64,000 nucleotides of DNA from the NCBI GenBank assembly GCA_016803235.1, contig JADCLI010000006.1, positions 93,343 to 157,342 of the forward strand, given 5' to 3'. Numbering within the stretch: the first letter of the stretch is position 1; the number at the start of each line of letters is the position of its first letter. Source of the DNA: Pimelobacter simplex. Its GTDB lineage: Bacteria; Actinomycetota; Actinomycetes; Propionibacteriales; Nocardioidaceae. A program made the translations under genes and the position numbers. Positions 2,654-53,799 of this stretch are shown one piece after another. The notes beneath the pieces were generated by a model. The model saw nothing but the letters and a program-made list of their open reading frames with translations, was not told where the DNA came from and did no database searches.

Positions 2654-3682
2654 TTGAATGGCGTCGTGCTCCTCGACCTGCAGCTGGACGCCCGCCCCGA
2701 CCAGGTGCGGGGGCGCGCCCGTGAGCTCGCCGAGGCCGGCGCGGCCGGGCTGTTCACGTTCGAGGGCCCGCACGACGTCTTCCTCCCCCTCGCCGCCGTC
2801 GCCGGCGAGGTCGACGCCGACCTGATGACCAACGTCGCGATCGCGATGCCACGCTCCCCGATGCACCTGGCCCACACCGCGTGGGACCTGCAGCTGATGT
2901 CGGGTGGCCGGTTCCGGCTCGGCCTGGGCTCGCAGATCCAGCCCCACATCGAGAAGCGGTACGGCGCCCGCTGGTCGCCGCCCGCCGCGCGGATGCGCGA
3001 GATCGTCGGCGCCGTCAAGGCGATCCTGCACTCCTGGGAGACCGGCGACCGCCTGGACTTCCGCGGCGAGCACACCACGCACACCCTGATGCCGCCGACC
3101 TTCGTCCCCGGCCCGAACCCGTACGGACCGCCGCCGGTCCTGCTCGGCGCCCTCGGCCCGCTGATGACCCGCACCGCCGCCGAGGTCGCCGACGGCCTGC
3201 TGGTGATGCCCTTCCACAGCCACCGCCACTTCCGCGAGCGCACCCTCCCCGCCATCGCCGACGGTCTCGCCCTGGCGGGCCGGTCCGCTCGCGACTTCGC
3301 CGTCCACCCCCAGGCCATCGTGGCGATGGGCCGCACGGACGGGGAGGTGAGCGCCGCGCGGGCGGGCGTGCGCGCACTGCTCGCGTTCTACGGCTCCACG
3401 CCGGCGTACCGGCCGGTCCTGGAGGTGGAGGGCTGGGCCGACCTGCAGCCCGAGCTCAACCGGCTCTCCAAGACCGGAGACGTCCCCGCCATGACCGCGC
3501 TCGTCGACGACGCGATGCTCGACACCATCGCCGTCGCCGGCACCCCCGAGGAGTGCGCCGCCGAGATCCGCCGCCGCTTCGGCGACGTCCCCGGCGTCGA
3601 GCGGGTCTGCTGCTACTTCCCGGGCTACGACCCGCCGCTGGACCAGGTCGCCGCGCTGGCCGGGTCCCTGCGTCGCACCTGA
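2654..3682 (+). CDS. LLM-class F420-dependent oxidoreductase
   Basis: A luciferase-like monooxygenase/F420-dependent oxidoreductase of 342 residues, TIM-barrel type. Visible landmarks are LFTFEGPHDVFLPLA, DLMTNVAIAMPRSP, LMSGGRFRLGLGSQ and GGYK-less substrate loops, matching the actinobacterial TIGR03617-type subgroup. The substrate is unknown. The start is TTG at 2654, since no ATG or GTG in frame gives the complete first strand (VVLLDLQLDAR). Its stop codon lies inside repeat A1: the protein ends R-R-T and the TGA is part of the repeat arm. Confidence 0.85.
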   Translation: MNGVVLLDLQLDARPDQVRGRARELAEAGAAGLFTFEGPHDVFLPLAAVAGEVDADLMTNVAIAMPRSPMHLAHTAWDLQLMSGGRFRLGLGSQIQPHIEKRYGARWSPPAARMREIVGAVKAILHSWETGDRLDFRGEHTTHTLMPPTFVPGPNPYGPPPVLLGALGPLMTRTAAEVADGLLVMPFHSHRHFRERTLPAIADGLALAGRSARDFAVHPQAIVAMGRTDGEVSAARAGVRALLAFYGSTPAYRPVLEVEGWADLQPELNRLSKTGDVPAMTALVDDAMLDTIAVAGTPEECAAEIRRRFGDVPGVERVCCYFPGYDPPLDQVAALAGSLRRT

Positions 3683-3733
3683 CGAATGGGCTGTGAATTC
3701 AGCGAGATCACAGCCCATTCGTCAGGTGCGACG
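3671..3733. repeat. Palindromic repeat A, copy 1 (63 bp), between convergent genes
   Basis: A near-perfect inverted repeat whose arms read CGTCGCACCTGACGAATGGG and its complement, with a short AT-richer centre. The same arms occur at 24652 and 25804. It would fold into a long hairpin in transcripts from either side and probably acts as a bidirectional terminator between the LLM gene and the enoyl-CoA hydratase gene. The TGA of the LLM gene (3680-3682) is inside the left arm. Confidence 0.9.
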
Positions 3734-12929: not shown

Positions 12930-14852
12930 GTGTCACGCCCGCCCCTGCCCCAGCACTGCCCGACGCAGCGCGAGCTCGACGACCTCGAGCTGCTGACCTC
13001 CGGAGCGGCCGACCCGATCCGCGGGTTCAACGAGCCGGGCAGCCCACTGACGCTCTCCCTGCCCGACGAGCTCCTCACGCACCTCGACGAGGGCAACGAG
13101 GTCGAGCTCGTCGACCCCGAGGGCCTGCCCCTCGCCCGGGTCACGAGCGTGCTGCGTGGCCTCGCCGTGACCCCCCTGACGCACGCCCAGTTCGGCCCGT
13201 TCCGCCGGCTGCACCTGGCGCCCGCTGCTGTACGGGAGCGGTACGCCGGGCGCACCTTCGTCCCCGTCACCGACCTGATGACCGACGTCCAGGTCGAGCA
13301 GCTGCGCGGCCTCGGCCCGGTCGTGCTGCTCGCGCTCGTCGGCGCGGGCACCCCCGCCGTCAGCCCGGTCGGCCTGCTGCGCGCGACGCTGCGGGTCGCG
13401 GAGACCATCGATGCCGAGGTGGTCGCCGTACCGCTCGCCGACCACGCCTCCCTCGCGGACCCCGCGCTGCGCATCTCGGTGCTGACGTCGTACGCCGACA
13501 CCGACCCGGTCGTCGAGCTCGCCTACGGCGGGCACCTGCTCCCCGGCCTCGCCGACATCGCGGCGGCGGAGCGCCCGCGCCCCGACCAGCAGGGCCTGGT
13601 GCTGTTCTTCACCGGCCTGTCCGGCAGCGGCAAGTCGACCCTCGCCCAGGCGCTGATGGACCGCCTGCTCGAGCACGGCGGCCGCAGCCTGACCAGCCTC
13701 GACGGCGACGTCGTGCGCCGCAACCTGTCCGCGGGTCTGACCTTCTCCAAGGAGGACCGCGAGACCAACATCCGCCGGATCGGCTGGGTGGCCGCCGAGA
13801 TCTCCCGTCACGGCGGGATCGCGGTGTGCAGCCCGATCGCCCCCTTCGACGAGACCCGCCAGCAGGTGCGCGCGATGGTCGACCAGGCAGGCGGTGCGTT
13901 CTTCCTCGTCCACGTCGCGACGCCGCTCGAGGAGTGCGAGCGGCGCGACCGCAAGGGCCTGTACGCCAAGGCCCGCCGCGGCGAGATCCCCGAGTTCACC
14001 GGCATCTCCTCGCCCTACGAGGAGCCGGCCGACGCCGACGTCCGGGTCGACACCACCGGTCGCTCGATCGAGGACGCCCTCGACGACGTGATCGAGGCGC
14101 TGCGCGCGGCCGGGTACGTCGACCTCACCGAGAGTTCGTCGAGTAGCCGCCGGAGCGACGAAGGAGCGGAGGCGGCGTATCGAGACGCCGTTGTCGTGCC
14201 GCGTCTCGATACGCCCTCGCCTAGCGGCTCGGGCTACTCGACGAGCTCAGAGGGTGCCCGGACCGCCGCCGGCGGCAGCCGGCCGCTGCGCGTGCTGTTC
14301 GTCTGCACGGCGAACATCTGCCGCTCGCCGTACATGGAGCTGCGCTCGCGGGCCCTGGCCGGCAGCGACAGCGGCATCGAGTTCGCCAGCGCCGGCACCC
14401 ACGGCTTCAACGCGCACCGGGTCGACCGGACCATGGCCGAGGTCCTCGGCGAGCGCGGCGTGGGCGCCGACCTGCTCAACGGGTTCGCCAGCCGCCCGCT
14501 CACCGACGACCTGATCGAGGCGGCCGACCTGGTGCTGACCGCCGAGGCCGCCCACCGGCAGTTCGTGCTCGAGGAGGTGCCGAGCGCGTTCCGCAAGGCC
14601 TTCACCCTCGCGCAGTTCGCCGAGTCCGTCGAGCGCGTCGACCCCGGCCTGCACGGCGCCGACCTGGTCACCGCCGTCGGCCACCGCCGCGCCGGCACGG
14701 CCGACCACCACGACATCCGCGACCCCTACCGACGGGGCAAGGCGGCGGCCGAGGTCTCGGCCGACCAGATCGACGCCCTGCTCCAGTCCGTGCTGCGCCG
14801 CCTGGCGCTGCCCGCCCCCGCCCCGACCACCGGACAGGCAGGCGACGAGTAG
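12930..14852 (+). CDS. cysC: Fused APS kinase / low-molecular-weight protein tyrosine phosphatase
   Basis: A 640-residue three-part protein. Residues about 1-220 resemble the PUA-like N-terminus of ATP sulfurylase (ELDDLELLTSGAADPIRGF). Residues about 222-400 are an APS kinase with P-loop FTGLSGSGKST, SPIAPFDETRQQVR and KGLYAKARRGEIPEFTG, making PAPS from APS. Residues about 452-640 are a complete LMW tyrosine phosphatase with VCTANICRS (CX5RS) and the acid loop DIRDPYRRG. The linker (about 401-440) is translated from palindromic repeat D1. The leaderless GTG start at 12930 is chosen. An in-frame GTG at 14292 could start the phosphatase alone, but has no clear ribosome site. Domain functions are from family knowledge; the joint role is inference. 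Confidence 0.85.
   Translation: MSRPPLPQHCPTQRELDDLELLTSGAADPIRGFNEPGSPLTLSLPDELLTHLDEGNEVELVDPEGLPLARVTSVLRGLAVTPLTHAQFGPFRRLHLAPAAVRERYAGRTFVPVTDLMTDVQVEQLRGLGPVVLLALVGAGTPAVSPVGLLRATLRVAETIDAEVVAVPLADHASLADPALRISVLTSYADTDPVVELAYGGHLLPGLADIAAAERPRPDQQGLVLFFTGLSGSGKSTLAQALMDRLLEHGGRSLTSLDGDVVRRNLSAGLTFSKEDRETNIRRIGWVAAEISRHGGIAVCSPIAPFDETRQQVRAMVDQAGGAFFLVHVATPLEECERRDRKGLYAKARRGEIPEFTGISSPYEEPADADVRVDTTGRSIEDALDDVIEALRAAGYVDLTESSSSSRRSDEGAEAAYRDAVVVPRLDTPSPSGSGYSTSSEGARTAAGGSRPLRVLFVCTANICRSPYMELRSRALAGSDSGIEFASAGTHGFNAHRVDRTMAEVLGERGVGADLLNGFASRPLTDDLIEAADLVLTAEAAHRQFVLEEVPSAFRKAFTLAQFAESVERVDPGLHGADLVTAVGHRRAGTADHHDIRDPYRRGKAAAEVSADQIDALLQSVLRRLALPAPAPTTGQAGDE
14132..14248. repeat. Palindromic repeat D, copy 1, inside a coding region
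   Basis: The left arm contains CGTCGAGTAGCC and GTATCGAGACG; the right arm contains CGTCTCGATACGCC and GGCTACTCGACGAGCTC, so the whole folds back on itself. The right-arm sequence recurs at 26789. It is read through in frame as a Ser/Arg/Ala-rich linker between the APS kinase and phosphatase domains. Confidence 0.85.
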
Positions 14853-15853
14853 TGGACGACCTCCTCACGCTGACCGCGCTCTCCATCGCGGCCGCGGGCT
14901 TCCTCGTCGGCATCGTGGTCGGCCTGACCGGCATGGGCGGCGGTGCCCTCATGACGCCCGCCCTCATCTTCCTGGGCGTCGGCCACACCGCGTCGATCGT
15001 CACCGCCGACCTGACCGCGGCGGCCGTCTACAAGACCGGCGGCGCGATCACGCACGCCAAGGAGGGCTCGCCGAACCTGCGGCTCGCGGGCTGGCTGGTC
15101 CTCGGCTCGGTGCCGATGGCCTTCCTCGGTCCGTGGCTGGTGAAGGCCGTCACCGACGACCCGACCGAGCTGGAGCAGGCGCTCAAGCTCTGCATCGGCG
15201 TCGCGCTGCTGTTCGCCGCGTCGACGTATGCCCTGCGTCTCTACATCAACCTGAAGCGGGTACGCCGCGGCGGCGCGCTGCCCGACGACAACCCCCGCAT
15301 CCGACCGGTCCCCACCCTGCTCGTCGGCATGCTCGGCGGCCTGCTGGTCGGCGTCACCAGCGTCGGGTCGGGCTCGGTCATCATGATCGCGCTGCTGATG
15401 CTCTACCCCGGCCTGTCCGCGGTCCGCCTGGTCGGCACCGACCTGGTCCAGGCGGTGCCGCTGGTGCTCAGCGCCGCGCTGGCCAACATCGCCATCCACG
15501 GCCTCGAGTGGGACCTGGTGATCCCGCTCATCGTGGGCTCGGTGCCCGGCACGCTGCTCGGCTCCCGGCTCGCGCCGCGGGTGCCGCAGTCGTTCATCCG
15601 TCGCGGCATCGTGATCGTGCTGACCATGTCGGGGGTGGCGCTGCTGTTCAAGGCCGGCCTGCACCCGTTCGGCGAGGGCCACGAGACGCTCGAGGCCCTG
15701 CTGGTCGCCGCGGTGGGCGTCGCGATGCTGGTCCTGGTGCCCTTCGTGTGGGGCCTGCTGCGCAAGCGGCTCGGGATGCCGATGTTCGGCGCGCCGACCG
15801 TCGCCGAGATCGAGTCGTTCGGCAGCCGGGAACGCAAGCGCACCCGCGCCTGA
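14852..15853 (+). CDS. TauE/SafE family anion permease
   Basis: A 333-residue membrane protein with about eight hydrophobic segments in two halves. The first half has GIVVGLTGMGGGALMTP and the second GGLLVGVTSVGSGSVIMIA, the internal duplication typical of TauE/SafE (DUF81). The family moves sulfite, sulfonates or related anions. The GTG start shares its first base with the stop of the cysC-phosphatase gene, so they form one operon, and a sulfur anion is the likely cargo. Direction of transport is not readable. Confidence 0.87.
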   Translation: MDDLLTLTALSIAAAGFLVGIVVGLTGMGGGALMTPALIFLGVGHTASIVTADLTAAAVYKTGGAITHAKEGSPNLRLAGWLVLGSVPMAFLGPWLVKAVTDDPTELEQALKLCIGVALLFAASTYALRLYINLKRVRRGGALPDDNPRIRPVPTLLVGMLGGLLVGVTSVGSGSVIMIALLMLYPGLSAVRLVGTDLVQAVPLVLSAALANIAIHGLEWDLVIPLIVGSVPGTLLGSRLAPRVPQSFIRRGIVIVLTMSGVALLFKAGLHPFGEGHETLEALLVAAVGVAMLVLVPFVWGLLRKRLGMPMFGAPTVAEIESFGSRERKRTRA

Positions 15854-18125: not shown

Positions 18126-18225
18126 GGGGCCGACCCTAGAGGACTCCCGCGGCAAACTCGTCGATTTGTCTGACGAGGTCGCGCAGATGTCCCGGTGACA
18201 GGCCGCACATGGCACGATGCAGCCC

Positions 18226-19140
18226 ATGTCCCAGACCCACAGCGACTACCGGCTCAGCCAGCTGGACCAGCTGGAAGCCGAGTCGATCCACATCTTCCGG
18301 GAGGTGGCCGCCGAGTTCGAGAAGCCCGTGCTGATGTTCTCGGGCGGCAAGGACTCCATCGTCATGCTGCGGCTGGCCGAGAAGGCCTTCTACCCGGCGA
18401 AGATCCCGTTCTCGATCCTCCAGGTCGACACCGGGCTGGACTTCCCGGAGGTCATGGAGACCCGTGACCGCTGGGTCAGCCGGCTCGGCGTGAACCTCGT
18501 GGTGGCGAGCATCGACGACGCGATCAAGAACGGCATCATCCCGGACGCCGCGAAGATCAGCCGCAACCGCCTGCAGATCCCCACGCTGCTCAACGCGATC
18601 GAGGAGAACGGCTTCACCGCCGCGTTCGGCGGCGGACGCCGCGACGAGGAGAAGGCCCGCGCCAAGGAGCGCGTCTACTCCCACCGCGACGAGTTCGGCC
18701 AGTGGGACCCGAAGAACCAGCGCCCCGAGCTCTGGAACCTCTACAACGGCCGCCTGCACGAGGGCGAGCACATGCGGATCTTCCCGATCTCCAACTGGAC
18801 CGAGCTGGACGTCTGGGACTACATCGGCCGCGAGGGCATCGAGATCCCGAGCATCTACTACGCGCACCAGCGCCGCGTGTTCGTGCGCGACGGCATGCTG
18901 ATGAGCGAGACCCCGCTCAACCCGCTGCGCGAGGGCGAGGTCGTCGAGGAGCGGACCGTCCGGTTCCGCACCTGCGGCGACATCACGCTGACCGGCTGCG
19001 TCGAGAGCACCGCCTCCACGATCGCCGAGATCATCGAGGAGGTCGCCGTGGCACGCAAGACCGAGCGCGGCGCGACCCGCGGTGACGACCGGTTCTCCGA
19101 GGCTGCCATGGAGGACCGCAAGAAGGAGGGCTACTTCTGA
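18226..19140 (+). CDS. cysD: Sulfate adenylyltransferase subunit 2
   Basis: A 304-residue PP-loop ATP pyrophosphatase with SGGKDSIVMLRLAEKAF near residue 38, QVDTGLDFPEVMETRD, and GGGRRDEEKARAKER. With CysN it makes APS from sulfate and ATP. The ATG at 18226 is preceded by CACGAT and 7 bases, a weak leaderless pattern; the ATG at 18217 is an alternative adding three residues. It is followed by cysN after a short repeat-C fragment. Confidence 0.95.
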   Translation: MSQTHSDYRLSQLDQLEAESIHIFREVAAEFEKPVLMFSGGKDSIVMLRLAEKAFYPAKIPFSILQVDTGLDFPEVMETRDRWVSRLGVNLVVASIDDAIKNGIIPDAAKISRNRLQIPTLLNAIEENGFTAAFGGGRRDEEKARAKERVYSHRDEFGQWDPKNQRPELWNLYNGRLHEGEHMRIFPISNWTELDVWDYIGREGIEIPSIYYAHQRRVFVRDGMLMSETPLNPLREGEVVEERTVRFRTCGDITLTGCVESTASTIAEIIEEVAVARKTERGATRGDDRFSEAAMEDRKKEGYF

Positions 19141-19175: not shown

Positions 19176-20420
19176 ATGGACCTCCTGCGCTTCGCGACCG
19201 CCGGTTCGGTCGACGACGGCAAGTCCACGCTCATCGGGCGCCTGCTGCTCGACTCGAAGGCCATCTTCGAGGACCAGCTCGAGGCGGTCGAGGCCACCAG
19301 CGAGGCGAAGGGGTACGACTACACCGACCTCGCGCTGCTGACCGACGGCCTGCGCTCCGAGCGCGAGCAGGGCATCACCATCGACGTGGCCTACCGCTAC
19401 TTCGCGACGCCCAACCGCAAGTTCATCATCGCCGACACCCCGGGCCACGTGCAGTACACCCGCAACATGGTCACCGGTGCCTCCACCGCCGACCTCGGCC
19501 TCGTGCTGGTCGACGCCCGCCAGGGCCTCACCGAGCAGTCCCGCCGCCACGCGGTGATCCTGTCCCTGCTCCGCGTCCCGCACCTCGTGCTGGCCGTGAA
19601 CAAGATGGACCTCGTCGACTTCGACCAGGCCGTCTACGACAGGATCTACGCCGAGTTCACCCAGTTCGCGACCAAGCTCAACGTCCCCGACCTCGAGGTC
19701 ATCCCGATCTCGGCGCTGCAGGGCGACAACGTCGTGACCCGCTCCGAGAACATGCCGTGGTACTCCGGTCCCACGCTCATGCACCACCTCGAGCACGTCC
19801 ACGTCGCCTCCGACCGCGACCTCATCGACGCCCGGTTCCCGGTGCAGTACGTCGTGCGGCCGAAGTCGGACGAGTTCCACGACTACCGCGGCTACGCGGG
19901 CCAGGTCGCCGGCGGCATCCTCAAGCCGGGCGACGAGGTCGTCGTACTCCCCTCGGGCATGACCTCGAAGATCTCGAAGATCGACCTCTTCGACAAGGAG
20001 ATCGCCGAGGCCTTCCCGCCGATGAGCGTCACGGTCCACCTCGAGGACGACGTCGACGTCTCGCGCGGCGACATGATCGCGCGGGTCAAGAACGCCCCGA
20101 CGCCCAGCCAGGACATCGACGCGATGGTCTGCTGGATGACCACCGCCCCGCTGCAGCCGCGGCAGAAGCTGGCGATCAAGCACACCACCCGCACGGGTCG
20201 CGCCCTGGTCAAGGACATCCAGTACCGCCTCGACGTCAACACGCTGCACCGCGACCAGGCCACCAACGAGCTCGGCGTCAACGAGATCGGCCGCGTCACG
20301 CTGCGCACCACCGTGCCGCTGCTGTGCGACCCCTACTCCAAGAACCGCACCACCGGCTCGTTCATCCTGATCGACGAGGCGACCGGCGTGACCGTCGGCG
20401 CCGGCATGATCAACGGCTGA
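19176..20420 (+). CDS. cysN: Sulfate adenylyltransferase subunit 1 (GTPase)
   Basis: A 414-residue GTPase of the EF-Tu class that drives ATP sulfurylation by CysD. Seen: P-loop GSVDDGKSTLIGRLL, switch-II DTPGHVQYTRN, NKMDLVD. The C-terminus ends normally for stand-alone CysN, without a fused APS kinase; the kinase is supplied by the fusion gene at 12930. The ATG at 19176 follows GGAGGG. An upstream ATG at 19140 would translate the repeat fragment and is rejected. Confidence 0.95.
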   Translation: MDLLRFATAGSVDDGKSTLIGRLLLDSKAIFEDQLEAVEATSEAKGYDYTDLALLTDGLRSEREQGITIDVAYRYFATPNRKFIIADTPGHVQYTRNMVTGASTADLGLVLVDARQGLTEQSRRHAVILSLLRVPHLVLAVNKMDLVDFDQAVYDRIYAEFTQFATKLNVPDLEVIPISALQGDNVVTRSENMPWYSGPTLMHHLEHVHVASDRDLIDARFPVQYVVRPKSDEFHDYRGYAGQVAGGILKPGDEVVVLPSGMTSKISKIDLFDKEIAEAFPPMSVTVHLEDDVDVSRGDMIARVKNAPTPSQDIDAMVCWMTTAPLQPRQKLAIKHTTRTGRALVKDIQYRLDVNTLHRDQATNELGVNEIGRVTLRTTVPLLCDPYSKNRTTGSFILIDEATGVTVGAGMING

Positions 20421-24637: not shown

Positions 24638-24651
24638 GGTTCCGTTCTCCG

Positions 24652-24714
24652 CGTCGCACCTGACGAATGGGCTGCGAAACGGTCCGATTTGCAGCCCATT
24701 CGTCAGGTGCGACG
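24652..24714. repeat. Palindromic repeat A, copy 2
   Basis: Full-length 63-bp copy with perfect outer arms CGTCGCACCTGACGAATGGG, 14 bases after the dtd stop. Probably the dtd terminator. With copy 3 at 25804 it flanks the orphan gene at 24781. Confidence 0.9.
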
Positions 24715-24780: not shown

Positions 24781-25815
24781 ATGGACCTGCCGCACCTGAC
24801 CCGTCCGGGCATCGTGGTGCCCGCTCGGGTCGACCCCACCGGACGGCTCGGCCCGACGAGAGCACAGGCGCGAGGACGGCGATGGCGGCAGGTTGCTCCG
24901 TGGTACCACGTGCCGGCCGAGACCGACAGCGAGCGCACGGACCAGCGGATCGTGGAGGCGATCGCTCCGCTTCCACCGGGATCGGCGGCGACCGGGTGGG
25001 CAGCCCTGCACTGGCTCGGAGCCCGGTGGTTCGACGGAACCGACGCAGACGGTCGGCACCTCGACGTCCAGGCAGCACTCGGCCACCAGCACACCGCTCG
25101 GTACCGCCCGGGCGTCGACCTGACCGAGGACTGGCTCTTCGACGACGACGTGATCTGGGTGGACGGGCTGCCCATCACCGTCCCGTTGCGGTCGGTGAGC
25201 TACCTCGCCCGCTGGGCGCCGACCGACCTCGTCGCGACGCGGAACGTCGACATGGCGGCGTACGACGACCTGGTGACGCTCGACCGCCTGGCGGCCTACG
25301 GCGTCCGTCTCGGATCGCGGCCGGGCATCCGCCGGTTCCGGCGGGCGATTGCGGCCGCCGACGAGAATACCTGGTCGCCGATGGAGGTGTCCGCCCGCTT
25401 CACGTGGCACGGCGCCTTTCCGGGACGCTCCTTGTCGTGCAACCGGCCGGTCTTCGACCTCGCGGGCAACCACCTCTTCACACCGGACCTGCTCGACGTC
25501 GAGGCAGGGGTGGCCGGCGAGTACAACGGCACGGACCACGGGGACGACGAGAGGCGCCGACAGGACCTGGTCCGCGACGACGTGGCGCGACGTCACGGCA
25601 TCGAGGTCGTCACCACCATGGCCGGCCCGCGTGAGCGGGAACGCTTCCTCCATCGACTTCGCGGCGCCTACGGCCGGGCCGCGACGCGGACCGGTCCGCG
25701 CACGTGGACGATCGAGCAGCCCGACGGGTGGGTCGACACCTCGACGGTCGCGTCGCGGCTCGCTCTCACGCCGTACCAGCGGGATCGGTGGTTGCGCTAT
25801 CGGCGTCACACCTGA
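24781..25815 (+). CDS. Orphan protein with endonuclease-like C-terminal domain
   Basis: A 344-residue protein of a type common in actinobacterial genomes, often as orphan genes. The C-terminal part (FDLAGNHLFTPDLLDVEAG, then GEYNGTDH and ARRHGIEVVTTM) looks like a DUF559/PD-(D/E)xK-like nuclease core. The N-terminal part resembles the AbiEi-type antitoxin-like region of such proteins (EAIAPLPPGSAATGWAALHWLG). Function unproven. The ATG at 24781 has CAGGCT plus 7 bases upstream, a weak leaderless pattern. Its stop (H-T-TGA) lies in repeat A3, and repeat A2 precedes it. Confidence 0.68.
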   Translation: MDLPHLTRPGIVVPARVDPTGRLGPTRAQARGRRWRQVAPWYHVPAETDSERTDQRIVEAIAPLPPGSAATGWAALHWLGARWFDGTDADGRHLDVQAALGHQHTARYRPGVDLTEDWLFDDDVIWVDGLPITVPLRSVSYLARWAPTDLVATRNVDMAAYDDLVTLDRLAAYGVRLGSRPGIRRFRRAIAAADENTWSPMEVSARFTWHGAFPGRSLSCNRPVFDLAGNHLFTPDLLDVEAGVAGEYNGTDHGDDERRRQDLVRDDVARRHGIEVVTTMAGPRERERFLHRLRGAYGRAATRTGPRTWTIEQPDGWVDTSTVASRLALTPYQRDRWLRYRRHT

Positions 25816-25866
25816 CGAATGGGCTGGGAAACGGCCGAATTAGCAGCCAGTTCGTCAGGTGCGACG
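25804..25866. repeat. Palindromic repeat A, copy 3, between convergent genes
   Basis: A slightly diverged 63-bp copy. Both flanking convergent genes stop inside it: the plus-strand gene with H-T-TGA in the left arm, the minus-strand DUF4395 gene with R-T-TGA in the right arm. Confidence 0.9.
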
Positions 25867-26787: not shown

Positions 26788-26788
26788 G

Positions 26789-26836
26789 CGTCTCGATACG
26801 CCGCTCGCCGGCGCTCGCGGCTACTCGACGATCGAA
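26789..26836. repeat. Repeat D, copy 2 (half element)
   Basis: Begins CGTCTCGATACGCC and ends GGCTACTCGACGA, matching the right arm of repeat D1 at 14202-14248. It lies directly after the DUF1416 stop and next to the terminator hairpin. Confidence 0.8.
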
Positions 26837-32861: not shown

Positions 32862-33509
32862 TCAGGGGTTGGGGGTGGGGGTTGCCCGCCGCCGCTGCCG
32901 GGCCACGAGGGTCCCGGCGACGGCGACGAGGAGCACGGCGCCGAGAACACCGCCGATCTGGAGGGCAGCGCTGCTGCCGGTGCTGCTGGTGGTGCTGGTG
33001 GTGTTGGTGCTGCCGGTCGACGTGACGCCGAGCGACCACTCGTGGGTGGGCGCGTCGGCGCCGTACACCTGGTGCTGGCCGTCCGGGCCGGTGGCGAGGG
33101 TGCGGTACGCCGGGTGCAGGTCGGTCAGCGTGCTCACCGCCACCGTCGCGGTCGCGGCCGGCTGCGCGCAGGTGAACACGAGGTCCGCGCCGTCCGCGAT
33201 CAGGTCGCCCGAGGCCGCCACCTCGCCGGGGCAGTCCCGGCCGCCCGCGCTCACCGTGACGTGGTCGAGCAGGTAGGAGTGCACCTCGGGCGCCTGCTGC
33301 ACGAGGGCGGCGTCGCCGTCGTCGTACTGGATGGCGCCGTCGAGCATCACCCGGTCCTCGGGCAGCACCCCGACGTGGATGCCGAGCAGGGTGAGGTCGT
33401 CGGCGGCGCCGACCTTCCAGGTGACGTGGACGACGGCGGGGTCGTCGGCGTCGCGGGCGACCTCGACCGTCTGCGGGTCGCCGAAGGGGTGCGCGGCCAC
33501 CGTCCTCAC
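32862..33509 (-). CDS. Membrane-anchored extracytoplasmic protein without visible signal peptide
   Basis: A 215-residue protein. It begins VRTVAAHPFGDPQTVEV, continues as a beta-rich domain with two cysteines, then a Ser/Thr/Gly-rich linker and one C-terminal membrane helix (LQIGGVLGAVLLVAVAGTLV) with a basic tail. This orientation puts the N-terminal domain outside, yet no signal peptide precedes AHPFG. The motif recalls the AHPLGNFT start of extracytoplasmic domains fused to NicO transporters in other actinobacteria. The GTG start overlaps the NicO stop (GTGA). Probably an accessory of that transporter. Confidence 0.7.
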   Translation of the reverse strand: MRTVAAHPFGDPQTVEVARDADDPAVVHVTWKVGAADDLTLLGIHVGVLPEDRVMLDGAIQYDDGDAALVQQAPEVHSYLLDHVTVSAGGRDCPGEVAASGDLIADGADLVFTCAQPAATATVAVSTLTDLHPAYRTLATGPDGQHQVYGADAPTHEWSLGVTSTGSTNTTSTTSSTGSSAALQIGGVLGAVLLVAVAGTLVARQRRRATPTPNP

Positions 33510-34282
33510 GCGGCGCCCGCCAGTCGACCGACCGCGGTCGTGGTGACGACGCACCCGATGACGGTGATGCTGGCCGCGGCGAGCACCGGCGCGATCCGGG
33601 TCGCGGTCGCCATCAGCGTCCGCGACTCCGCCGCGCGCACCACGACATTGCGCCCGGCCAGGGCGAGCAGGCCCACCGCGAAGAGCACCGTGGCCAGGCC
33701 CAGGCCGAAGGTGATGACCAGCAGCAGCGCGAACCCGGAACGTCCGGTGAAGATGCCGGTGACCAGCACCAGGAAGGCCGCCGGCGACGGGGTCAGGCCG
33801 CCGGACATGCCGAGCAGGACCAGCCCGGGCCGGCTAGGCCCATCGCCGTGGCCGTGCCCGTGGCCGTGTCCGTGGCCGTGTCCGTGGCCGTGTCCGTGGC
33901 CGTGCCCGTGGCCGTGCCCGTGGGCGCCGCGCAGGTGGCGACGGAACAGCCAGACACCGACCCCGACCACCATCAGTCCGGCGGCCAGCTGCAGCCCGCT
34001 GGTCAGCCGCTCGAGCGAGAGCAGGTCCGAGAGCGACAGGAAGGTCCAGGCGATGGCGACGACGAGCACCGACACGGTGTGCATGACCGCGACCGAGGCA
34101 CCCAGCCATGCGGCGTCGCGGACCTTGCCGTCCGCCCCCACCAGGTACGCCGCCGCCAGGCTCTTGCCGTGCCCGGGCCCGACCGCGTGGGCGGCGCCCG
34201 CCGCGAAGGCGAGCAGGAAGGCGAGGGGGACGAAGCCGGGCGAGCCGACGAGGTCGACCAGGCGGTCGTCGAGGGAGGGCAC
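33506..34282 (-). CDS. NicO-type nickel/cobalt transporter with His-rich loop
   Basis: A 258-residue polytopic protein of the HoxN/HupN/NixA-NicO superfamily. It has the signature AAHAVGPGHGKSLAAAYLVG in the first helices, a cytoplasmic loop of about 13 consecutive Gly-His pairs (near residues 119-145), and GMSGGLTPSPAAFLVL in the second half. It should move Ni2+ or Co2+, with efflux (RcnA-like) or uptake undetermined. GTG start at 34282. First gene of a three-gene run with the anchored protein and the phosphoesterase. Confidence 0.87.
   Translation of the reverse strand: MPSLDDRLVDLVGSPGFVPLAFLLAFAAGAAHAVGPGHGKSLAAAYLVGADGKVRDAAWLGASVAVMHTVSVLVVAIAWTFLSLSDLLSLERLTSGLQLAAGLMVVGVGVWLFRRHLRGAHGHGHGHGHGHGHGHGHGHGHGHGHGDGPSRPGLVLLGMSGGLTPSPAAFLVLVTGIFTGRSGFALLLVITFGLGLATVLFAVGLLALAGRNVVVRAAESRTLMATATRIAPVLAAASITVIGCVVTTTAVGRLAGAA
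33848..33922. repeat. Tandem 12-bp repeat encoding (Gly-His)13
   Basis: Six to seven units of GTGGCCGTG(T/C)CC on the plus strand, read on the minus strand as the His-rich loop of the metal transporter. Such a tandem is prone to length change by slippage in steps of four residues. Confidence 0.9.
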
Positions 34283-36368: not shown

Positions 36369-37808
36369 TTGGACTTCAAGCAGTTTCTGACGGTGCTGGG
36401 GCGCCGTTGGATGAGCATCGTTGCGATCATCCTGCTCGCGCTCGGGGTCAGCTCCGCGATCACGTTCACGCGCACCCCGATGTACGAGTCGAAGACGCAG
36501 ATCTTCCTCACCGTCGACGTCCGCGACACGACCGATGCCTATGCGGCCCTGCTGTTCGCGTCGAACCGCGCAGCTTCGTACGCCACGGTCGTGAAGAGCA
36601 CCGGCCTCGCCGAGCTGGTCAAGAACGACCTCAACCTGAAGATGTCAGCCGAGGAGCTGGCCTCCCGGTTCGACGCGGAGGTCGTGGAGAGCACCTCGCT
36701 GATCCAGATCAGCTACAAGGACGAGAACCCGCAGGACGCGCGGACCATCGCCGACTACGCGACCGAGAAGTTCACGACGTACGTCGCCGGGCTGGAGACG
36801 CCGGGTGAGGCCGGCGACAGCGCGACGACCGCCGGCAACCCGGCGGACTCGCTGACCCGCGCCGAGGTCACCGACAAGGCGTCGGTCGCGACCCAGGTGA
36901 GCCCCGACGTGGTCCTCAACCTGGTCGTGGCGACGCTGATCGGCATCCTGCTCGGCATCGGCCTCGCGGTGGCCAGGGAGATCCTGGACCGCACCATCCG
37001 CACCGCCGACCACGTCGCCGAGCTCACCGAGTCGCCCGTGCTCGCCAGCATCGGCTTCGACGGCGACATCCGCTCCGCGCCGCTGCTCACCGACCTCGGG
37101 GGCTTCGCGGCGCGCACCGAGGCGTTCCGCCTGCTGCGCACGAACCTGCAGTTCATCGACCTGGACCACCAGCCGCGCTGCCTGGTGATCAGCAGCGCGG
37201 TGCCCGGCGAGGGCAAGACGATGACCTCGACGAACCTCGCGGTCGCGCTCGCCCAGACCGGTCGCAACACCCTGATCATCGACGCCGACCTCCGCCGGCC
37301 GCGCGTCGCCAGCACCCTCGGCCTCGACCCGGCCATCGGTCTCACCACCGCGCTCGTCGGCAAGACCGAGATCCACGACGCGATCCAGGTCCACGAGGCC
37401 AGCGGCCTGCACGTCCTCGCCAGCGGTGCCAAGCCCCCGAACCCGACCGAGATCCTGCAGTCGAAGATCACCCACGACCTGATCCGGCGGCTCCGGTCGT
37501 CTTACGACATGGTCATCATCGACGCCCCGCCGCTGCTCCCCGTCGCCGACGCGTCGGTGCTGGCCAAGCTCGCGGACGGCGTGATCATCGTCGTGCGGCA
37601 CGCCAAGACCACCAAGGACCAGGTCAACGAGGCCATCAACCGCCTCAACCAGGTCGGCGCCCGCCTCTACGGCGTCGTGGTCAACATGGTCGCCAAGCGG
37701 GCCATCGGCTCGTATTACTACTACTACTACGAGGAGACCAGCCCGTCCGGTCGCTCGGGCAAGTCCGACGCGAAGGCCACCGCCGGCTCCGGACGCCGCC
37801 GGGCCTGA
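36369..37808 (+). CDS. Polysaccharide co-polymerase / BY-type tyrosine autokinase
   Basis: A 479-residue fused Wzz and bacterial tyrosine kinase. Residues 1-200 form the Wzz domain between membrane helices SIVAIILLALGVSSAI and LNLVVATLIGILLGIG. The kinase has Walker A SAVPGEGKTMTST (about residue 275), Walker A' IIDADLRRP and Walker B MVIIDAPPLLP. A C-terminal cluster GSYYYYYYEE is the autophosphorylation tail. It should control chain length and export of the polysaccharide made by the genes to the right. TTG at 36369 is chosen at the conserved DFKQFLTVLGRRW start. A tyrosine phosphatase that could act on it is fused to APS kinase at 12930. Confidence 0.92.
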   Translation: MDFKQFLTVLGRRWMSIVAIILLALGVSSAITFTRTPMYESKTQIFLTVDVRDTTDAYAALLFASNRAASYATVVKSTGLAELVKNDLNLKMSAEELASRFDAEVVESTSLIQISYKDENPQDARTIADYATEKFTTYVAGLETPGEAGDSATTAGNPADSLTRAEVTDKASVATQVSPDVVLNLVVATLIGILLGIGLAVAREILDRTIRTADHVAELTESPVLASIGFDGDIRSAPLLTDLGGFAARTEAFRLLRTNLQFIDLDHQPRCLVISSAVPGEGKTMTSTNLAVALAQTGRNTLIIDADLRRPRVASTLGLDPAIGLTTALVGKTEIHDAIQVHEASGLHVLASGAKPPNPTEILQSKITHDLIRRLRSSYDMVIIDAPPLLPVADASVLAKLADGVIIVVRHAKTTKDQVNEAINRLNQVGARLYGVVVNMVAKRAIGSYYYYYYEETSPSGRSGKSDAKATAGSGRRRA

Positions 37809-37828: not shown

Positions 37829-37861
37829 CGAGCCGCCGAGGACCTGGTCCCCGGCGGCTCG
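37829..37861 (+). terminator. Hairpin after the BY-kinase gene
   Basis: CGAGCCGCCG pairs with CGGCGGCTCG around a 13-base loop, followed by TTCGTTCT, 20 bases after the stop. Confidence 0.7.
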
Positions 37862-37870
37862 TTCGTTCTA

Positions 37871-38166
37871 CCGGTGGCCGGGGTGCGAGGCCGCCCGCGC
37901 CGCCCGCCGGTGGTTGAGGTGCGAGGCCGCCCGCGCCGCCCGCCGGTGGTTGAGGTGCGAGGCCGCCCGCGGCCGAGCCTCGAAACCACCGGCCATGCTG
38001 CTGGTACTCGCCCGTGGTCAGGTCCCGGCAGTCGGCCCGGTGGTTTCGAGGCTCCTCGCTGGCGCTCGTCGCACCTCAACCACCGGAAGGGCTCCTCGCT
38101 GGCGCTCGTCGCACCTCAACCACCGGAACGGCTCCTCGCTGGCGCTCGTCGCACCTCAACGACCGG
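37871..38166. repeat. Composite palindromic repeat C, copy 1, between convergent genes
   Basis: About 300 bp without a gene. Three direct units containing GGTGGTTGAGGTGCGAGGC are followed by a central GCCTCGAAACCACCGG...CCGGTGGTTTCGAGGC stem. Three inverted units containing CTCGTCGCACCTCAACCACC then follow. The whole is one long palindrome with tandemly duplicated arms. Similar at 52221, partial at 52833 and 19142. Confidence 0.9.
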
Positions 38167-38173
38167 AGACGGC

Positions 38174-43443: not shown

Positions 43444-44496
43444 TCACAGCGACCAGGTCGCGAAGGACTGCCCGGTCAGCTCGCGCAGGCGATCGACCTC
43501 CGGTTGCAGCTCGGCCCGCAACGCCGCCTCGGTGGCCGGGCTGAGCTGCGGCCGTTCGATCCTCTCCCCGGTACGGCGCCAGGCCAGGTGCGCCAGCCGA
43601 CGGGCGGCCGGCAGCCGGCGGACCGCCCGCACGAGCGGCCCGCGCCGGATCGCCATCAGCCACGGCGGCAGCGCCCGCTTCTCCTCGGCGGTGTTGTGGC
43701 GCCCCCAGTCGTCGGCGGACAGCGCGGGGCTCTCCAGGCCGAGGAACGCGAAGACCCGACCCATCGTCCCGTCGGCGTCCGCGCCGAGGTCGGCGAGATC
43801 GACGACCAGCACCCGGTCCTTCCCGAAGGCCTCGAGGTAGGGCTCGAACTGCGTGGCGTAGCGGCTGGACGCGACCAGCGGGCTGGTCGGCTCGGCGGGA
43901 TCGGCGAGCTCCTCGTCGAGCGGGCGCTCCGCGGCGTTCCAGGCGACCATCTCGACGTGCTCGGCGACGATCCGGTCGATCGGGTCGCGCACCAGGTAGA
44001 TGATCCGGGCGTCGGGCGCCAGCGCGGCCATGCGCTCCACGACACCCGGGTAGCAGGGCGCCTTGCTGTAGAACGGCGTCGACTCCAGCCGGTAGCGGGT
44101 CCCGGGCGCGAACCGCTCCTGGTAGGCGCCCACCCAGTCGCGACAGTCGGGATCGGTGAAGAAGCGCATCTCCTTCTCCTCCGAGGCCGCGACCTCCGGG
44201 TGCACCGCGAGATAGGCGTGCATGCTCGTCGTACCGGCCTTCGTCGCGCCGACCACGACCACGTTCGGCAGTCGGGCCGGGTCGGGCTGCTGCGGCGTCG
44301 CGTCGCCTCGTCGTACCCGGTGGCGGGGCGCGACCCGGACCGTGCAGTTCGGGCAGGCGTCGAGCGCGTTGCCGTCGGCCGCCAGGGTCCAGCCGGTACG
44401 CCGCAGCCAGGCCGGGCTCGCGATGGTCAGGACGGGCGGGACGCAGAGATCGCACTGCATCGAGACCCGGCCGTGGGCCAGGGGGGTGAGAAGCAC
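43444..44496 (-). CDS. PAPS-dependent sulfotransferase with N-terminal Cys4 motif
   Basis: A 350-residue sulfotransferase with the 5'-phosphosulfate loop VVVVGATKAGTTSMHAYL near residue 80, KEMRFFTDP, and YLVRDPIDRIVAEH for the 3'-phosphate. The first 55 residues hold C15-x2-C18 and C48-x2-C51, a zinc-ribbon-like pair not usual in this family. It probably sulfates the polysaccharide or a glycolipid using PAPS from CysD/CysN/CysC encoded at 12.9-20.4 kb. GTG start at 44496. Confidence 0.87.
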   Translation of the reverse strand: MLLTPLAHGRVSMQCDLCVPPVLTIASPAWLRRTGWTLAADGNALDACPNCTVRVAPRHRVRRGDATPQQPDPARLPNVVVVGATKAGTTSMHAYLAVHPEVAASEEKEMRFFTDPDCRDWVGAYQERFAPGTRYRLESTPFYSKAPCYPGVVERMAALAPDARIIYLVRDPIDRIVAEHVEMVAWNAAERPLDEELADPAEPTSPLVASSRYATQFEPYLEAFGKDRVLVVDLADLGADADGTMGRVFAFLGLESPALSADDWGRHNTAEEKRALPPWLMAIRRGPLVRAVRRLPAARRLAHLAWRRTGERIERPQLSPATEAALRAELQPEVDRLRELTGQSFATWSL

Positions 44497-51477: not shown

Positions 51478-52217
51478 GCGGCCGGCTGGGCGACCTGCGG
51501 GCGTTCGTCCGGTTGCGGCGGGCACGGCTGCGCGGCTGGGTCGCGCTGCTCCGGATGCTGCTGGCCGCGCTGCGCGGCCAGGTCGACGAGATCTGGGTCG
51601 GCGACTCGCACGCGGTCACCTTCAACACCGAGCACTCGCCGTTGCCCGGCATCCTGCGCACCGGCGAGCGCCGCTGGACCTGGCACCTCGGCCCGCGGGT
51701 GATGTACTCCATCGCCCGCGACGACTTCCCGCCCACGCTGCTGCGGACCGCGCGCCTCGTCGCCCGCGTCCCCGGTGCCCGGGACGCCGCCTGGTTCTTC
51801 TCCTTCGGCGAGATCGACATCCGCTGCCACCTCGCCCCGCGCCTGGCCGCCGGCGGTGACGTCGGCTTCGTGTCGTCGTACGTCGACCGGGTGCAGGGCC
51901 TGGTCGGCCGCCTCGGCACCCCGGTCGGCACGATCGTCGTCCCCGTCCCGCCGTGCCTGGACAGCTACGACCACGCCGCCTTCCCCGTCGCCGGCTCCCC
52001 CGACGAGCGCCTCGCCGCCCACCGTGCGGTCCGCTCCGCGCTCACCGTCGCCGTCGGTGCCGCGCCCGCCCGCCCCGCGCTGCGGCTGCTCGACCCCACC
52101 GAGGCACTGTCCGGCCCGGACGGCTTGATGCGCGAGGAGCTCACCGACGACGGGTGCCACACGAACGTCGCCGGGCGCGCGGTGGTACGCGGCGAGATCG
52201 CCGCCCTCCTCGGCTGA
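51474..52217 (+). CDS. SGNH-like protein 2 of tandem pair
   Basis: A 247-residue protein with IWVGDSHAVTFNTEHS (GDS block with His), FFSFGEIDIRCHLA (block III-like) and DDGCHTNVAGRAVV (His block). The GDSH and GEIDxR pattern resembles SGNH proteins found beside polysaccharide genes. GTG start overlaps the previous stop by GTGA. Role as glycan esterase or acyl transfer enzyme is inference. Confidence 0.68.
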   Translation: MSGRLGDLRAFVRLRRARLRGWVALLRMLLAALRGQVDEIWVGDSHAVTFNTEHSPLPGILRTGERRWTWHLGPRVMYSIARDDFPPTLLRTARLVARVPGARDAAWFFSFGEIDIRCHLAPRLAAGGDVGFVSSYVDRVQGLVGRLGTPVGTIVVPVPPCLDSYDHAAFPVAGSPDERLAAHRAVRSALTVAVGAAPARPALRLLDPTEALSGPDGLMREELTDDGCHTNVAGRAVVRGEIAALLG

Positions 52218-52220
52218 GAC

Positions 52221-52444
52221 CCGCCGGTGGTTGAGGTGCGAGGCGCGCCAGCGCCACCCGCCGGTGGTTGAGGTGCGAGGCGCGCCAGCGCCGAGCCTCG
52301 AAACCACCGGCCATGCTGCTGGAAGGCTCCCGTGGTCAGGGTGCCGGCAGCAGGCCCGGTGGTTTCGAGGCTCCTCGCTGGCGCTCGTCGCACCTCAACC
52401 ACCGGGCACGCTCCTCGCTGGCGCTCGTCGCACCTCAACCACCG
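52221..52444. repeat. Composite palindromic repeat C, copy 2, between convergent genes
   Basis: Two direct units containing GGTGGTTGAGGTGCGAGGCG precede the same centre as copy 1 (AACCACCGGCCATGCTGCTGG). Two inverted units containing CGCTCGTCGCACCTCAACC follow. It begins 4 bases after the SGNH stop, and the stop of the GIY-YIG gene (52435-52437) lies inside it. Confidence 0.9.
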
Positions 52445-52761
52445 GAAGCGTCCTCCCGGCCGCCGGCCCTGCGCTGCACGGCGGCCCGTCGGGCGAGGTC
52501 GGGCAGCGCGGCGTAGTCGTCCCTCATCAGCGCCTCCCGCTTCCTCCTGCTCCAGCCCTGGACACGCTTCTCGAAGGCGTACGCATCCTCGATGCGGTCG
52601 AACCAGCCACTCCACACCAGCGTGACCGGCCGTCGTCCACGCGTGTAGGCGGCACCGAGCTCATCGCTGTGGTTGTGCTGCCACAGCCGGGCGTCGATGT
52701 CCCACGTGCTCCCGACGTAGTAGGAGTCGTCGGAGCACCGAACGATGTAGGTCCACGGCAT
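52435..52761 (-). CDS. GIY-YIG domain protein (UPF0213-like)
   Basis: A 108-residue small nuclease-like protein. The GIY-YIG motif is WTYIVRCSDDSYYVGSTWD at residues 3-21, followed by GRRPVTLVWSGWF and a basic helix EKRVQGWSRRKREALM. Short members of this family occur widely; function unknown. The C-terminal residues DASGG and the stop come from repeat C2, so the natural end may have been replaced by the repeat. ATG at 52761. Confidence 0.83.
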   Translation of the reverse strand: MPWTYIVRCSDDSYYVGSTWDIDARLWQHNHSDELGAAYTRGRRPVTLVWSGWFDRIEDAYAFEKRVQGWSRRKREALMRDDYAALPDLARRAAVQRRAGGREDASGG

Positions 52762-52832
52762 GGGCTCTCGGTGCCTCGCCCGTAGCTGCACCAAACAACG
52801 AGGCCCGGCGCCTGTGGACGGGAGCGGTGTAG

Positions 52833-52881
52833 CCGGTGGTTTCGAGGCTCCTCGCTGGCGCTCGTCGCACCTCAACCACCG
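52833..52881. repeat. Repeat C, copy 3 (half element)
   Basis: Begins CCGGTGGTTTCGAGGCTCC and ends CGCACCTCAACCACC: a single inverted-arm unit with its own short stem, between the FkbM methyltransferase stop and the GIY-YIG gene. Confidence 0.85.
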
Positions 52882-52905
52882 ACACGGCTCGACCGCCGTG
52901 AGACG

Positions 52906-53799
52906 TCAGGCCAGCTCGTCCGGGACGAGCTCGGTGATCGCCTTCAGCCCGTCGGCGTCGTCGCGGTGCACGACCGCGACGTCCCAGTAGATGCGCGACC
53001 GCGCCCGGCCGCCGGGCACCTCGTCGAGGACCCGGCCCTGCTGGGCGACCTTGTCGACGGTGGTGCGACCGACGGTGAGACCGCCGTTGTCCCAGACCGC
53101 GACGTGCTCGTAGCCGAGGCCCGCCAGGCGTGCCCAGACGCTCTCGGGGTCGCGGCCGACGAGCCGGGTGAGGTAGGGGTCGTACTCGAAGAAGAGGACC
53201 GGCTGGACGTCCTGCCAGGCCTCGGCGACCGCGGGGACCAGGTCGACGTCGTACCCGTCGGTGTCGGACTTGACCAGGCGGAGCCGGTCGAACGCCGGGT
53301 GGTCGGTGCGCAGCGAGGTGGGCGAGACGGTCGGCATGGCGTCGCCGGCGGCGCCCTCGACGAAGCGGGTGGTGCCGCCGGAGCGAACGGCCGTCGTACC
53401 GCCGTCGCTGCCGTCGACGGTGAGCAGCGCCTCGACGACGGTGACCCGGGAGTCGCGGTCGACGTTGCGGTGCAGGAAGTCGAGATAGGCCTTGTCGGCC
53501 TCGATGCAGAGCACCTGGCCGTCGGCGGCGTTGAGGATCTGCACCGCGGAGTCACCCACGTTGGCGCCGACGTCGAGGACGGTCAGCGGGCCGGTGGTGG
53601 CCAGCAGCCGGGCGAGCTCGACGAGGTTCTGCCCGTAGGTCGGCTGCCACACGGCGTAGTCCGGCAGCCGGTGCGACCACGGGAGGACGAGCTCGACGCC
53701 CTGGACGTGGCGCACGACGGGCCGGAACGGGAAGCGGTCGCGGATGATCCATCCGACGCGTCGCTTGGCGGTGGAAGCAAGGGTTCCGAGTCCGGTCAC
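52906..53799 (-). CDS. FkbM-family methyltransferase (1)
   Basis: A 297-residue SAM methyltransferase with PLTVLDVGANVGDSAVQIL, VLCIEADKAYLDFLHRNV, and LVKSDTDGYDVDLV, matching the FkbM fold used for O-methylation of sugars and polyketides. The GTG at 53799 has TAGCAT exactly 7 bases upstream, indicating a leaderless transcript from a symmetrical divergent promoter shared with the next gene. Confidence 0.86.
   Translation of the reverse strand: MTGLGTLASTAKRRVGWIIRDRFPFRPVVRHVQGVELVLPWSHRLPDYAVWQPTYGQNLVELARLLATTGPLTVLDVGANVGDSAVQILNAADGQVLCIEADKAYLDFLHRNVDRDSRVTVVEALLTVDGSDGGTTAVRSGGTTRFVEGAAGDAMPTVSPTSLRTDHPAFDRLRLVKSDTDGYDVDLVPAVAEAWQDVQPVLFFEYDPYLTRLVGRDPESVWARLAGLGYEHVAVWDNGGLTVGRTTVDKVAQQGRVLDEVPGGRARSRIYWDVAVVHRDDADGLKAITELVPDELA

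Follow-up and report, generated by a model that had tools for sequence, protein, structure and literature searches.

Interspersed palindromic repeats translated within the linker of an APS kinase–tyrosine phosphatase fusion in Nocardioides

The region analyzed here, hereafter the window, is a 64,000-nucleotide stretch of the Pimelobacter simplex genome. As the initial annotation claimed, a single open reading frame of 640 codons on the plus strand (12930–14852) joins an ATP sulfurylase-like domain, an APS kinase, a linker and a low-molecular-weight protein tyrosine phosphatase (LMW-PTP) in this order, and one polypeptide of 640 residues, with a computed mass of about 68 kDa, would presumably be made from it. 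The frame overlaps by 1 nt with a gene for a TauE/SafE-type exporter on the same strand (14852–15853). The kinase domain (about residues 218–398; 13581–14123) possesses both the P-loop GLSGSGKS and the DGD motif, matched the Pfam profile APS_kinase in full (1–152 of 152), and scored 192 bits against the APS kinase (CysC) model TIGR00455, of which the cut-off is 138.7 bits. The phosphatase domain (about residues 451–630; 14280–14819) bears the CX5R motif, CTANICRS, and the late DP, and was hit by the Pfam profile LMWPc with 62–65.5 bits against a cut-off of 23.2 bits. The phosphatase residues C, R, S and D-P were invariant in all of the 20 sequences compared, and the residue at Cys+4 is Ile, as is usual in phosphatases acting on tyrosine and not in those acting on arginine. 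By profiles and motifs, the two enzyme domains are whole, as had been annotated. As the motifs of both are intact, the fusion product is expected, on sequence grounds, to have both APS kinase and phosphatase activities.

The first 213 residues (12930–13568) correspond to a shortened ATP sulfurylase-like fold. No ATP sulfurylase profile was found in the window protein by Pfam at 1e-3, and HxxH, a motif of ATP sulfurylases, is absent from 60 of the 64 fused homologues including the window protein (the remaining four have it). When this part was folded alone, the top 15 rows of the structure search were all ATP sulfurylases or sulfurylase/APS kinase proteins, with high rmsd. The N-terminus was thus correctly annotated as sulfurylase-like by its fold, and the domain is truncated and probably non-catalytic; a full-length catalytic ATP sulfurylase was rejected on its length of 213 residues and the absence of HxxH. 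Among solved chains, the profile search placed 3cr8 best (1.5e-88, nearly all from the kinase part), while Foldseek with the whole model placed 2gks (Aquifex sulfurylase–APS kinase) best and 3cr8 fourth, and the N-terminal domain alone retrieved 3cr8 first by Z. 3cr8, the hexameric APS kinase of Thiobacillus denitrificans, likewise comprises a sulfurylase-like N-terminal part and an APS kinase, but it has a longer sulfurylase-like part (matched over 31–360) and no phosphatase in the chain. The LMW-PTPs Wzb and YwlE share the fold and the CX5R motif with the window domain, which differs from them in being fused to an APS kinase.

In the AF2 model, based on an alignment of 42 homologues, the folded domains are accompanied by one long segment with pLDDT below 50 (residues 403–448; 14136–14273), and this segment, predicted to be disordered, coincides with the linker. 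The corresponding DNA (14132–14250) folds strongly into one long hairpin and had 78 matches in its own genome, which were merged into about 53 places. Thus, the proposal that the linker is a translated interspersed palindromic repeat holds, and the linker constitutes an in-frame repeat copy inside a conserved protein gene. The element is found a second time in the window, as an incomplete copy between predicted genes (26788–26831; G000:C66:120130–120173). The element matched 25 of the 59 genomes of the genus, its own included, at E ≤ 1e-3, often over part of its length. In the comparison with all of the 64 fused linkers, the element hit, besides itself, those of L065 (1.5e-7), L104 (5e-7) and L093 (0.003).

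The window holds other repeats as well. Another inverted-repeat family (CGTCGCACCTGACGAATGGGCTG...) was found at 3657–3733, 24638–24714 and 25790–25866, at or beyond the ends of predicted genes. A palindrome family represented by CCGGTGGTTGAGGTGCGAGG forms two clusters (37846–38168 and 52211–52924), and its members are also translated in the linkers of other species (e.g., L049 and L094). A 12-nt tandem repeat, CCGTGGCCGTGT, occupies 33834–33926 within a predicted minus-strand gene (33506–34282).

Outside the linker, the repeats are intergenic with few exceptions. All of the 65 copies in the flanks of the loci were intergenic (a place may be counted twice where one species is represented by two records), as were six of the seven copies in the window, the other being at a gene edge. 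The loci fetched from this genome hold 27 distinct copies, of which 24 were intergenic, one was at a gene edge and two were inside genes. Note that this split was made by a simple gene caller of our own, by which 89–92% of the DNA is coding. One of the two intragenic copies lies between Amino_oxidase and DUF1365 (L003, containing G000:C44:121022–123142), and the other, a copy of the window's element, between Acetyltransf_8 and IucA_IucC of a fusion for siderophore-type synthesis (L005, containing G000:C44:43077–45206). Among the relatives of the former (L189–L207), 19 Nocardioides loci were fused, and two of the 19, those of this genome and G026 (L190), bear a linker repeat. Among the relatives of the latter (L159–L177 and L183), 11 were fused and nine separate, and a repeat was visible only in this genome (1/11). 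Apart from the copies of this genome, repeats at these two junctions were judged by eye. Repeats are thus rarer at these two junctions than in the kinase–phosphatase linker, and more than permissiveness may be needed to account for the frequent hits in the latter.

We compared 110 homologous loci (L031–L140), which were the best matches listed, and only fetched loci were classified: 67 were fused, 28 were separate, four had the kinase only and in 11 no kinase was seen. Both domains are thus present in 95 of the classified loci. In 67 of these, they are joined in frame; the other 28 have two genes that overlap or nearly touch each other and leave no space for a repeat, cysC ending 14–26 nt before the Cys codon of the phosphatase. 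No repeat-bearing junction with a broken frame was found among the 95. The two nearest relatives among the matches listed, L032 and L033, are 86% identical and both fused, and the window element has no match in their linkers. As judged from these relatives, the fusion predates the repeat now filling the linker in the window. The same domain order was found in relatives both with and without a repeat. After the removal of duplicates, 64 fused and 25 separate loci were used for a tree of both domains, which requires five changes between the fused and separate states, two of them forced by starred branches. The tree of the kinase with outgroups has a weak base and long branches for L069, L080 and L158; both are quick trees without a mixture model. 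No match spanning both domains was found outside the genus among the matches listed. In six of the 10 outgroup loci, which are all of the same family as the genus, tauE directly follows cysC (L149–L154; not in L155–L158). Therefore, the phosphatase gene was probably inserted between cysC and tauE within Nocardioides, as far as gene order can tell. In G005 (L051, 2659–2830), the phosphatase domain is absent from this place and the kinase has the C-terminal sequence ...PVVEQEGAR, its stop codon lying about 100 nt ahead of tauE. This end is apparently a repeat remnant at a lost junction, and G005 possibly represents an end point at which the phosphatase has been lost.

It had also been suggested that the phosphatase is made alone from an internal start, and the fused loci gave little sign of this. 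Only three of the 64 have a start codon in the linker with a Shine–Dalgarno match of at least 5, and none of the six ATG codons found in these linkers has a Shine–Dalgarno match. Such a sign is weak in the separate form too, in which nine of the 28 phosphatase starts have a match of at least 4.

Repeats recur in the same linker across the genus. Of the 64 fused linkers, 59 of at least 30 nt were searched (five were too short), and 33 of the 59 had matches at E ≤ 1e-6 to scattered places elsewhere than in the gene itself, with differing repeat families. Shuffled linkers gave no match (0/590), and equal-length stretches taken from elsewhere in the same ORFs gave eight (8/590). On inspection by eye, six of the latter looked like repeats translated in other parts of the protein, namely in a loop before the kinase (L077, L083 and L094, the last twice) or in an N-terminal domain hairpin (L108, twice), and the other two (both L086) matched one place only each and looked ordinary. 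A scan at E ≤ 1e-5 added a few more loci with matches at other places in the ORF. At the looser cut-off of 1e-3, linkers (38/59) and controls (139/590) were separated less well. The same-ORF stretches replaced a control of random stretches of whole loci, in which 166 of 295 matched, a result we put down to homologous neighboring genes. The count of 33 out of 59 is a lower bound, since L043 missed the cut-off in spite of the many copies held by its genome (G024). The linker of L043 had 73 further matches in G024, none in G013 and two weak ones in G034, so that at least this family is lineage-specific. The linker of N. mangrovi (G008; L107) had 53 further matches in its own genome, while an equal-length piece of the phosphatase had one weak match. 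On a quick tree of the 64 fused rows, the presence and absence of repeats require at least 15 changes. Repeat-bearing linkers are longer than the others (median 138 versus 105 nt), and the detection of repeats is therefore driven in part by length. The peptides VVEVRGAPATSLETP, VVEQRAPASVVETP, VEEGALAPVSKP and GGRVASASERIETT recur in the linkers of other species. In L045, L049, L073, L088 and L093, the repeat units in the linker are expanded head-to-tail in tandem, the linker reaching up to 372 nt (L093).

The repeats are mostly read in one frame. The five elements tried have three to six stop-free frames, and yet, among 33 loci that have the core GGTGGTYGAG (one mismatch allowed), 26 read it in one and the same frame (VVE...). 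This preference points away from free insertion and towards selection on the peptide, inheritance, or gene conversion of one old, resident copy.

We consider it probable that the fusion is old, was not created by a repeat, and has a permissive disordered linker that has repeatedly taken up the palindromic repeats active in each lineage, and that this junction evolves as intergenic DNA would if it were translated. The product would be a two-enzyme protein in which the APS kinase is tethered through the disordered linker to the LMW-PTP domain, the phosphatase having reached its position between cysC and the tauE-type gene at an early stage of the genus. Apart from having to keep the frame, the linker would be only slightly constrained, and no other such stretch of the ORF is as long; therefore, short palindromic elements, which elsewhere are almost only intergenic, could survive in the linker too. 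Elements would spread in each lineage, and the copies landing in frame in the linker would survive; such uptake would have happened again and again, the family differing between species and one of the six frames being used in most cases, and in several species the units would have been duplicated in tandem. The neutrality of the linker repeats and the mobility of the elements are what we infer from this pattern.

The initial annotation had proposed instead that the repeat joined two neighboring genes by removing a stop. For the copy in the window, this is ruled out by L032 and L033, which are fused and in whose linkers the element has no match. In the broader version, a palindrome replaced the stop of cysC in this lineage or an ancestor. 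The element has stop-free frames, the three intragenic copies found in this genome sit between two domains, and a stop separates the genes for the oxidase and DUF1365 in 4/4 loci of other genera and in the more distant Nocardioides loci L212 and L214. However, these two are fused in the relative G014, where the gap is 45 nt and no repeat can be seen, and 17 of the 19 fused Nocardioides loci are likewise free of a visible repeat. Furthermore, some of the 64 distinct kinase–phosphatase fusions have a linker of only 9–18 nt by our own measure, and five linkers (L087, L089, L090, L098 and L133) are very short and repeat-free. We thus regard the creation of the fusion by a palindrome as very improbable.

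Two other explanations concern why the repeats stay. An RNA hairpin between the coding halves might tune translation, folding or mRNA stability. In favor of this, folding is strong for the element in the window, nine of 56 linkers had z below −3 against one of 112 control stretches, and REPs have been proposed as RNA elements (PMC3733652). On the other hand, many repeat-bearing linkers show no excess folding (e.g., L049, L045, L088, L092 and L043) and some fused genes are almost without a linker. With just nine of the 56 linkers below that z, a general hairpin role was rejected, and we give this explanation little credence. Somewhat less improbable, albeit still unlikely, is that one ancient linker repeat has been overwritten by gene conversion from dispersed copies, the families changing and the site and frame staying. 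The dominance of one frame agrees with conversion, as does the finding that this site is occupied by different families in related species (L045, L049 and L093). What speaks against it are sister loci whose linkers are short and free of repeats (L098 beside L042; L082 and L087 beside L043), the other frames used in L042, L077, L093 and L104, and the copies in other protein loops (L083, L094 and L108), which altogether argue for separate insertions too.

Translated palindromes have precedents. The Rickettsia palindromic elements (RPEs) are interspersed repeats of about 100–150 bp that occur as in-frame parts of conserved genes for proteins, and an RPE-bearing guanylate kinase is, according to a review, translated and active (PMC2229807); RPE insertions have been described in many unrelated genes (PMC10969869). 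The repeats analyzed here are likened to RPEs by description, and differ in that various families have entered one and the same linker in dozens of loci. Intragenic REPs of the GTAG and CGTC families are short palindromes that are mostly intergenic but sometimes within ORFs, and different REPs occur at about the same recB site in two Xanthomonas species (PMC3733652). The recurrence in Nocardioides is much larger in scale and takes place at a domain junction. The window element has in common with REP/RAYT systems an interspersed, mainly intergenic palindrome; unlike in those systems, no Y1_Tnp (PF01797, RAYT-type) transposase was found in nine Nocardioides genomes, while the profile was found in five of 14 control genomes, and a transposase of this type was rejected as the mover of the repeats. 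In the open-access literature searched, we found no report of an APS kinase–phosphatase fusion, nor of repeats in Nocardioides genes, repeat-made linkers or recurrence on such a scale at one junction.

As for the function of the fusion, CysD (18217–19140) and CysN (19176–20420), the small and large subunits of ATP sulfurylase, are encoded on the plus strand, so the fusion gene lies near other genes for sulfate activation. A true-looking BY-kinase with a tyrosine-rich tail (36369–37808) and a sulfotransferase (43444–44496) are encoded 20–30 kb from the fusion gene. Given CysD, CysN and the sulfotransferase, PAPS supply by the fused kinase is plausible. A connection of the fusion with the sulfotransferase is putative. 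That the phosphatase domain acts on the BY-kinase is speculative; LMWPc genes are found at four other places in the genome, and one of them gave a stronger Pfam match (132 versus 62 bits).

Translated palindromic repeats have hitherto been known as scattered oddities. A single linker refilled by differing families in dozens of genomes amounts to an experiment replicated by nature, from which one may learn how selfish DNA turns into protein, what frames and peptides can be tolerated, and in what way linkers between domains lengthen. The fused loci without a repeat, the fused loci with a repeat and the separate loci also make a clean comparative set for testing the function of a fusion between PAPS supply and a phosphatase. 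More tentatively, we entertain the possibility that fusion junctions in Nocardioides behave like translated intergenic DNA, which the mobile palindromes of each lineage enter, convert and expand, the repeats supplying the linkers and selection acting on the frame. If true, interspersed repeats would be a standing source of new inter-domain linkers.
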